A stretch of DNA of 41,344 nt. Origin: Oscillospiraceae bacterium. GTDB lineage: Bacteria; Bacillota; Clostridia; UBA1381; UBA9506. This document shows positions 26,453 to 41,344 of the stretch, in pieces. Location: positions 1-41,344 of the forward strand of contig SVJO01000011.1 in NCBI GenBank assembly GCA_015068935.1, given 5' to 3'. The position numbers were made by a program, and so were the translations under genes. The notes beneath the pieces were generated by a model. The model did no database searches and had not been told where the DNA came from. It worked only from the letters and a program-made list of their open reading frames with translations. How positions within the stretch are numbered: the stretch's first letter is position 1; every line of letters starts with the position of its first letter.

Positions 26453-26536
26453 GCGCCTGTGGCGGAATTGGCAGACGCGCTAGACTTAGGATCTAGTGTC
26501 CCCGACGTGAAGGTTCAAGTCCTTTCAGGCGCACCA
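26453..26536 (+). tRNA. tRNA-Leu (anticodon UAG)
   Basis: 84 bases including encoded CCA. Acceptor GCGCCTG pairs with CAGGCGC; anticodon stem CTAGA/TCTAG holds loop CTTAGGA with TAG; a long variable arm marks it as class II; the T arm contains GGTTCAAGTCC. A terminator follows directly. Confidence 0.95.
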
Positions 26537-28614: not shown

Positions 28615-28634
28615 TAATTTTTCACCTCGCTATA

Positions 28635-28670
28635 CAAAAAAGCTTTTCTCCGCACACGAAGAAAAGCTTT
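28635..28670 (-). terminator. Attenuator terminator in the rplJ leader
   Basis: On the minus strand a 13-bp stem (AAAGCTTTTCTTC with GGAGAAAAGCTTT, one G-U pair), 6-base loop, then a U run, just before the rplJ ribosome site. Placed to respond to L10 binding upstream. Confidence 0.75.
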
Positions 28671-28704
28671 AAAAAACATATAAAAATATAATTTCTATAA
28701 AACT

Positions 28705-28772
28705 TTTTCCTCGGCTGGCGCTTATTAGCTTTAAGTCCAAAGGACACCTGCTGTCTGCGGAACTATTTAACT
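28705..28772 (-). ncRNA. Ribosomal protein L10 leader
   Basis: In message sense the block CCGCAGACAGCAGGTG and the later CCAGCCGAGG match the conserved pieces of the L10 leader, with a paired GUCC/GGAC segment between. L10(L12)4 binds this RNA in other Bacillota and represses its own operon. Confidence 0.85.
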
Positions 28773-28779
28773 ACAGTAA

Positions 28780-39587: not shown

Positions 39588-40229
39588 ATGAGAATGAGAA
39601 AAAAGAAACATCTGCACGAAAGACTGAGCCATTGCTCCAGCTTGATTATTGATGATATTTTCAAATACTCAGGAGATATTAAGAGCATTTTCCCTGATGA
39701 TTTGCCTCTTCATTTAGAGATTGGCTGCGGTAAAGGGAAATTCATCTGCGAAACAGCAAAAAAGAATAAGGATATAAACTTTATTGCGGTTGAAAAGAAT
39801 TTAAACGTGCTCGTGCTGGCGGCTGAAAAGATAAAAAATGAGGGACTGTCAAATGTCAGATTTATAGCAGGAGATGTTAATCTTTTAAGGGATTATGAAA
39901 CCAAGACAAAATGCGATATTATATACATAAATTTCTGTGACCCGTGGCATAAAAACAGCTACAGAAAAAGACGTCTTACGCACGAAAATCATTTAAAGCT
40001 GTGGGAAAAATTATTAAAACAAAACGGTGAAATTCATTTTAAAACAGATAATAAAAAACTTTTTGAATTTTCACTTAATTCCTTTTCGGATTACGATATG
40101 AAATTGAAAAATATTACGTTTGACCTTCACAACTCAGACTTTAGCGGAAATATCATGACTGAATACGAACAGCTCTTTTCAAGCCAGGGCGAGCCTATTT
40201 ACAGGTGCGAGGCAATCATGAGAAACTAG
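39588..40229 (+). CDS. trmB: tRNA (guanine46-N7)-methyltransferase TrmB
   Basis: 213 residues. Methylates G46 in tRNA with S-adenosylmethionine. Starts MRMRKKKHL; SAM motif LEIGCGKGKFI near 43-53, NFCDPWHKNSYRKRRLTH in place of the common DPWPK...KRRL, and HFKTDN. Start ATG follows AAGGAG by 9 bases. It has its own promoter and a two-way hairpin downstream; no partner gene. Confidence 0.95.
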   Translation: MRMRKKKHLHERLSHCSSLIIDDIFKYSGDIKSIFPDDLPLHLEIGCGKGKFICETAKKNKDINFIAVEKNLNVLVLAAEKIKNEGLSNVRFIAGDVNLLRDYETKTKCDIIYINFCDPWHKNSYRKRRLTHENHLKLWEKLLKQNGEIHFKTDNKKLFEFSLNSFSDYDMKLKNITFDLHNSDFSGNIMTEYEQLFSSQGEPIYRCEAIMRN

Positions 40230-40420: not shown

Positions 40421-40469
40421 CTACCCGAAGAAGAGAATATATAAACTCTTTTTCGGGTAGTGATTTTTT
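40421..40469. terminator. Two-way terminator between trmB and rplA
   Basis: A 15-bp stem (CTACCCGAAGAAGAG with CTCTTTTTCGGGTAG, one G-U pair) and 10-base loop. On the plus strand TGATTTTTT follows; on the minus strand TTTTTGTC follows. Suited to both trmB and leftward rplA transcripts. Confidence 0.75.
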
Positions 40470-40472
40470 ATA

Positions 40473-40642
40473 GTGATATTCTGTGCTATACGCACAGAGT
40501 GATATTTCCCTTTAGGGAAGTGATATTGAAACCTTACGGTTTCAGCCATATTTTATTCGCAAAAACTGCCGAAGGCAATAACACTTGTCGTAAGACAAAT
40601 ATCACTGTGAAGCAATATTACTCGCCGCAGGCGAATAAAACT
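40473..40642. repeat. Array of small hairpins joined by an 8-base GTGATATT motif
   Basis: GTGATATT at 40473, 40499 and 40520 precedes short hairpins CTGTGC-GCACAG (40481-40497), TTCCC-GGGAA (40506-40519) and GAAACC-GGTTTC (40528-40543). After a degenerate GCCATATT (40545) the motif appears inverted: AATAACAC (40577), AATATCAC (40598), AATATTAC (40614), each after or before a hairpin: TGCC-GGCA (40567-40577), TTGTC-GACAA (40585-40598), TCGCC-GGCGA (40622-40634). The stems differ in sequence while the linkers agree, so structure rather than sequence seems kept. The two blocks face each other. Confidence 0.75.
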
Positions 40643-40671
40643 GCCCAAGTATCCTTAAGGACACTTGGGCA
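40642..40671. other. Long hairpin at the end of the array
   Basis: TGCCCAAGT with ACTTGGGCA plus an inner TCC/GGA pair across a TTAA loop. On the minus strand GTTTTATT follows, so it may help end rplA transcription. Confidence 0.55.
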
Positions 40672-40700: not shown

Positions 40701-41344
40701 TTATTCAGCTTTAGCAGGATTAATTTTTACACCGGGGCCCATTGTTGATGCAACAGTGAGGCTTCTGATGTACTGTCCCTTTGCAGCAGCAGGTTTAGCT
40801 TTAATAATAGCGCCGAGTAATGCTTTGAAGTTTTCTGAAAGCTTCTCAACACCGAATGAAACTTTACCAACTGAGCAATGGATAATATTTGTTTTATCAA
40901 GACGGTATTCAACCTTACCTGATTTGATTTCAGCAACAGCCTTTGTAACATCAGCTGTTACTGTGCCAGATTTTGGACTCGGCATTAATCCCTTAGGACC
41001 TAAAACCTTACCTAAACGGCCTACAACACCCATCATGTCAGGTGTAGCAACAACTACGTCATAATCAAACCAACCGTCGTTCTGAATTCTTGGAATAAGC
41101 TCCTCGCCGCCTACAAAGTCAGCACCTGCTGCCTCTGCCTCAGCAACTTTGTCGCCTTTAGCAAAAACCAAAACTCTTGCAACCTTACCTGTTCCGTGCG
41201 GAAGTACAATAGCACCACGAACCTGCTGGTCTGCATGTCTTGAGTCAACACCAAGTTTAACATGAACTTCAACAGTTTCATCAAACTTAGCTTTTGATGT
41301 TTTGATAACTAAATCTAATGCTTCGTTAACATCATATAAGTTAT
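40701..41344 (-). CDS. rplA: Ribosomal protein uL1, 5' end outside the window
   Basis: 214 codons visible of an expected 230 or so; the start lies beyond the right edge, as the frame stays open to 41344. uL1 binds 23S rRNA at the L1 stalk and releases deacylated tRNA. Family blocks: [63 protein letters not shown]-like [14 protein letters not shown], and the end [12 protein letters not shown]. The Met near 41171 is internal, not the start. rplK is expected just upstream outside the window, whereas rplJ-rplL does not follow. Confidence 0.96.

Follow-up and report, generated by a model that had tools for sequence, protein, structure and literature searches.

A facing array of small hairpins with a constant linker in a gut Clostridia genome: a probable solo copy of a small mobile element, one half of which is catalogued as Gut-1

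What is the run of small hairpins, unrelated in stem sequence and joined by a constant linker, that lies between two convergent genes of an Oscillospiraceae bacterium? We analyzed the window, by which we mean the whole stretch of 41,344 nucleotides (GenBank assembly GCA_015068935.1, contig SVJO01000011.1). An earlier note made from the sequence alone had described linker-joined hairpins in two facing blocks. It had proposed a structured RNA, a protein-binding scaffold or an element growing by hairpin duplication. The described arrangement is real: positions 40472-40670 hold seven small hairpins in two facing blocks (three and four) with AGTGATATT or near-copies between them, plus an end hairpin, H0 (Table 1). 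The exact copies of GTGATATT were found where the note had placed them (40473, 40499 and 40520 on the plus strand, 40598 on the minus strand). The stems of the seven hairpins are unrelated, and the separators are either AGTGATATT or the degenerate forms AGCCATATT, AATAACACT, AATATTACT and AATAAAACT. A chance origin was rejected on two grounds. GTGATATT occurs 8 times in the whole window against a chance expectation of 1.35, half of these within 133 bases of array, and the fold of the array stretch lies far beyond that of shuffled sequences (z = -7.2 as DNA, -7.4 as RNA). The outermost linker and an arm of H1 are complementary to the centre, so that an alternative long-range stem is possible. 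As for the borders, the end given earlier (40642) is the exact end of the last linker, and the unit continues into H0 (40643-40670).

Table 1. Parts of the array at the window site and matches to the Rfam Gut-1 model.
Feature	Positions	Strand	Remarks
Whole element	40472..40670	-	Solo array without partner gene; minus-strand order H0, half A (H1-H4), centre, half B (H5-H7)
Rfam Gut-1 match, half A	40573..40643	-	49.6 bits, cut-off 50
Rfam Gut-1 match, half B	40458..40531	+	33.9 bits, cut-off 50
H0	40643..40670	.	28-base end hairpin GCCCAAGTATCCTTAAGGACACTTGGGC; adjoins last linker; similar-length H0 at other copies, moves with them
Linker A1	40634..40642	-	AGTTTTATT on minus; pairing with centre possible; helix 1: one double-change pair, six invariant
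H1	40623..40633	.	CGCC-GCA-GGCG; GNA loop on plus
Linker A2	40614..40622	-	Degenerate (AATATTACT on plus)
H2	40607..40613	.	GTGAAGC; variant of 7-base mini-hairpin GCGAAGC
Linker A3	40598..40606	-	AGTGATATT; exact on minus
H3	40586..40597	.	TGTC-GTAA-GACA; GNNA loop on plus
Linker A4	40577..40585	-	Variant (AGTGTTATT on minus); covaries with B1 across family
H4	40568..40576	.	GCC-GAA-GGC; GNA loop on plus
Centre	40553..40567	-	Complementary to A1 linker and H1 arm
Linker B1	40544..40552	+	Degenerate (AGCCATATT)
H5	40528..40543	.	GAAACC-TTAC-GGTTTC
Linker B2	40519..40527	+	AGTGATATT; exact
H6	40507..40518	.	TCCC-TTTA-GGGA
Linker B3	40498..40506	+	AGTGATATT; exact
H7	40481..40497	.	CTGTGC-TATAC-GCACAG
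Linker B4	40472..40480	+	AGTGATATT; exact; half B outer end

Rfam already lists one of the two halves as Gut-1 (RF01706), a presumed noncoding RNA reported from human gut samples only (Weinberg 2010, PMC2864571). The entry reads "sRNA", function unknown. Two Gut-1 matches face each other at the window array, both below the 50-bit cut-off and the one in half A just short of it; other copies in the window's genome pass the cut-off with 61.1 and 54.4 bits. The earlier note had missed this name, as well as H0, the family of partner genes and the sister families, whose linkers differ (described below).

The unit is dispersed and mobile. The window's genome holds about seven copies, and Gut-1 matches were found in 25 of the 61 genomes searched (the window's own and relatives), often as plus/minus pairs. 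In public genomes, a pattern of three linkers recurs in at least 115 stretches, and nearly all of the matches listed are in Clostridia metagenome-assembled genomes (MAGs), many of them from ruminant guts. Many dispersed copies and gut Clostridia as hosts, both raised in the earlier note, are thus supported. Among the matches listed, the pattern also occurs outside Clostridia, in Planktothricoides and Methanosarcina (L132, L152). Carriage by phages was rejected because just 7 of 2.9 million viral contigs contain the pattern. For two genomes from different host families (G020 and G031), 199 bp including H0 are 98.0% identical while the flanks score at background, and another pair of copies (L060 and L123) shows 99.4% identity over 154 bp. 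At an orthologous tRNA-groEL locus, one genome (G016) carries the array and another (G013) is empty, with a different terminator only; this is the one such site seen. Among the 123 elements with enough flanking sequence, 39 start 33-81 nt after a tRNA gene on the same strand, 35 of them at 33-46 nt. The preceding tRNA genes are of 17 types, and the spacing is about one H0 length. We conclude that many Clostridia carry dispersed copies of a unit of about 200 bp, that it has moved recently and that it is often found directly 3' of tRNA genes. A search for target-site duplications, the mark of a MITE, gave nothing consistent and mostly none at all, with one copied H0 (L202); the two cases with the highest scores came from wrapped coordinates and were artefacts. 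The motif CATCTAAACCATTCGGCTCTTCCA, perhaps a remnant of a tRNA 3' end, recurs just before terminator-like hairpins at five loci (L182, L173, L009, L225 and L419).

The window array itself sits between the convergent genes trmB (39588-40229) and rplA (40701-41344, minus strand), with terminator-like hairpins on both sides. We rejected a simple empty site at this flank: in nearly all relatives read, the L10 leader directly follows rplA, so the window locus is rearranged rather than simply empty. Within the window, about 12 kb separate the L10 leader (28627-28778, minus strand) from rplA. A block of housekeeping genes, with ftsH, HGPRTase, tilS, dnaB and L9, lies between them, and the array is at the rplA side.

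Sister arrays share the same plan but have other linkers, GTGAAATA and GATGAAAT. Fuller copies extend beyond half B with a promoter-like sequence and, after it, a gene of the four-helix-bundle/S23 family (PF05635). The closest solved structure to the partner protein by sequence is 2RLD, and comparison with nuclease families gave no match. The S23 protein is a toroidal homopentamer of four-helix bundles, and its family has been described as without known function (PMC4990558). Class-wide, PF05635 genes occur in 76 of 245 genomes. For 52 of the 125 genes with enough upstream sequence, the upstream region contains an inverted array that scores above all 125 dinucleotide shuffles, compared with 1 of 256 control tiles from rplA loci at the same threshold. 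Because an array score of 14 was reached by 2 of 100 tiles taken from the window outside the array, single weak calls are unsafe; despite this, the difference between the partner-gene upstreams and the control tiles is large. PF05635 proteins of the KVWQKA type showed no clear hairpin array.

In the window's genome, the only same-clade partner gene kept is truncated: at another copy (L282, G000:C27), the array is followed by the start of the gene (MADSVLRDKTKQFAKDIVFL), which is cut by a deletion. No same-clade PF05635 gene adjoins the window copy. The window does contain a four-helix-bundle gene (PF05635; 26070-26414, plus strand), but it is of another type: AT-rich inverted words flank it, and it has no hairpin array. 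This gene ends 39 bases before a tRNA-Leu (26453-26536).

Each clade of the partner protein goes with a linker word of its own. When the 13 linker groups are mapped onto a tree of 50 partner proteins, 13 changes are required (minimum 12, shuffled mean 35.1), and the same linker types recur across many host families. Linkage alone could produce this match. Because all linkers within one array are uniform, we infer a common binder, and the match between linker word and protein clade favors the protein-binding scaffold among the options raised earlier, with the binding itself putative.

Base pairing in the array is conserved. In an alignment of 34 homologues, 94.4% of the pair cells hold standard pairs, and double changes occur in 26 of the 36 pairs, a number reached by none of 500 shuffles; the covariation score is 0.446, compared with 0.134 for shuffled alignments. 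These compensatory changes support across the family what had been proposed from the one locus, namely that pairing is kept and stem sequence is not. The suggestion that the array grows by hairpin duplication was not borne out, since most homologues keep a fixed plan of four plus three hairpins. A further pairing, of linker A4 with linker B1, comes from fold prediction and shows seven double changes (columns 70-78 and 108-116 of alignment A1); it is an alternative to the pairing of linker A1 with the centre.

We took a census of 601 hairpins belonging to nine linker types, each written as the strand opposite its linker. In 500 of them the loop is closed by C-G. Triloops number 298, of which 187 have the form GNA; of the 238 tetraloops, 156 fit GNNA, and 66 of these are GNYA (not GNRA). 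By definition, an extraordinarily stable DNA mini-hairpin has a GNA or GNNA loop and two or more G-C pairs (PMC4686876), and the array loops fall into these same classes. The stems contain 2734 Watson-Crick, 25 G-T and 8 A-C pairs. G-T pairs thus make up 0.9% in the arrays; the tRNA stems at these loci have 6.8% (p = 4e-27). The stem parser tolerates few mismatches, which lowers both G-T and A-C and makes 0.9% a somewhat low estimate, but this limit cannot alone favor either strand. The low wobble argues against selection at the RNA level, and selection appears to act on the DNA structure instead. The near absence of wobble pairs and the DNA-type loops together weaken the earlier option of a structured RNA. 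Individual copies may be transcribed, with a function at the RNA level.

Building on the observed mobility, architecture, gene association and linker-clade match, we consider it fairly probable that the window array is a solo copy of a small mobile element family whose partner protein binds the linkers, with a putative single-stranded DNA (ssDNA) hairpin intermediate. In single-stranded DNA folded into mini-hairpins, a pentamer-type protein would bind the intervening linkers of its own clade; once bound, it would mark or protect the intermediate, which a host or trans-acting enzyme would then insert. This would make the window copy a passive derivative, because its genome keeps just a truncated same-clade partner gene. 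Against this reading, the searches identified no enzyme for strand transfer: the window's genome gave neither a Y1 transposase nor a reverse transcriptase match, and the partner protein resembles no nuclease family. Linker binding is suggested by sequence patterns, and the single-stranded hairpin form is probable on statistical support. A more tentative proposal, to which we give not quite an even chance, is that the family forms a mobile element class of its own: a pentameric four-helix-bundle protein of S23/Avd type would read the linker of its clade between the DNA mini-hairpins and would drive movement via ssDNA without a classical transposase, Gut-1 being half an element. The family is apparently undescribed apart from the half known as Gut-1: we found no description in the open-licence literature, subscription journals lying outside the search. 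If the reading is correct, an Rfam RNA family would be recast as DNA, and a widespread protein family stated to be without known function (PMC4990558) would gain a role. The one linker word per clade would also offer a natural experiment on how such proteins read nucleic acid.

Gut-1 could instead be a structured noncoding RNA, produced by read-through from flanking genes and serving as a 3'-end or trans RNA, its dispersal incidental. The Rfam match, the strong RNA fold and covariation, and an H0 that is often terminator-like would fit such an RNA. We nevertheless consider it unlikely, given the G-T share far below that of tRNA stems and 7-base hairpins of two base pairs, such as GCGAAGC, that are weak as RNA and strong as DNA (PMC4686876). 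The GNYA loops, the facing halves, the solo copies at unrelated loci and a linker that varies with the protein clade also count against it. Less likely still is a REP/BIME-like repeat whose ssDNA hairpins are cut by a Y1 transposase (RAYT or IS200/IS605), with the four-helix-bundle gene as a passenger. The facing units and DNA-type loops do resemble REP pairs, and Y1 (PF01797) matches occur in seven of eight genomes tested. However, most of these matches are weak, no Y1 gene was seen next to an array at the loci that were read, the window's own genome (91% complete) is the single one of the eight without a match, and the clade-specific linkers would be left unexplained. Mobilization by a reverse transcriptase was rejected as a general rule because PF00078 had no match in 9 of 12 genomes tested, most of them with arrays; the window's genome gave none.

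It is improbable that the array is the operator of an autoregulating four-helix-bundle gene and that solo arrays are relics of lost genes. The array does lie just upstream of the promoter and gene, and the truncated gene described above is one known relic, but many solo arrays have no gene remnant in the flanks shown, and the tRNA targeting and H0 better fit a moving unit. The least probable explanation is a bidirectional terminator or RNA-end stabilizer kept by the host between convergent genes. It agrees with the position between trmB and rplA and the terminator-like hairpins on both sides, but this position is not conserved (the L10 leader follows rplA in nearly all relatives read) and the constancy of the linker would have no explanation.

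The proposed mobile element consists of H0 and facing halves of four and three hairpins with a common linker, all of which the window copy has, and it can be compared with several known systems. Like the intervening sequences of Coxiella 23S rRNA (PMC4990558), it is a small selfish element with a PF05635 four-helix-bundle gene; here, however, the hairpin arrays lie behind tRNA and other genes outside 23S rRNA, the window array being between trmB and rplA. Avd of diversity-generating retroelements belongs to the same broad protein family (NF033474, E = 6e-4, far below its cut-off), but unlike in those retroelements, a reverse transcriptase match is missing from most genomes tested. CRISPR arrays have repeats in one orientation and unique non-palindromic spacers; here the spacers are hairpins and the repeats face each other. 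The earlier note, too, had set this small element apart from CRISPR. REP/BIME repeats are dispersed facing hairpin repeats with structure at the DNA level, and RAYT, their partner, is a Y1 transposase. The array element is likewise dispersed and facing, with DNA-level structure, but its linker is constant while the hairpins vary, its partner is a four-helix bundle, and the window's genome lacks a Y1 match. As for Gut-1 itself, half A has the Gut-1 structure, and the array family shows the conserved pairing with compensatory changes expected of it. The differences are that Gut-1 would here be a single half within a mobile element of DNA type whose halves face each other, and that its copies, listed for the human gut only, occur in MAGs from many ruminant guts.
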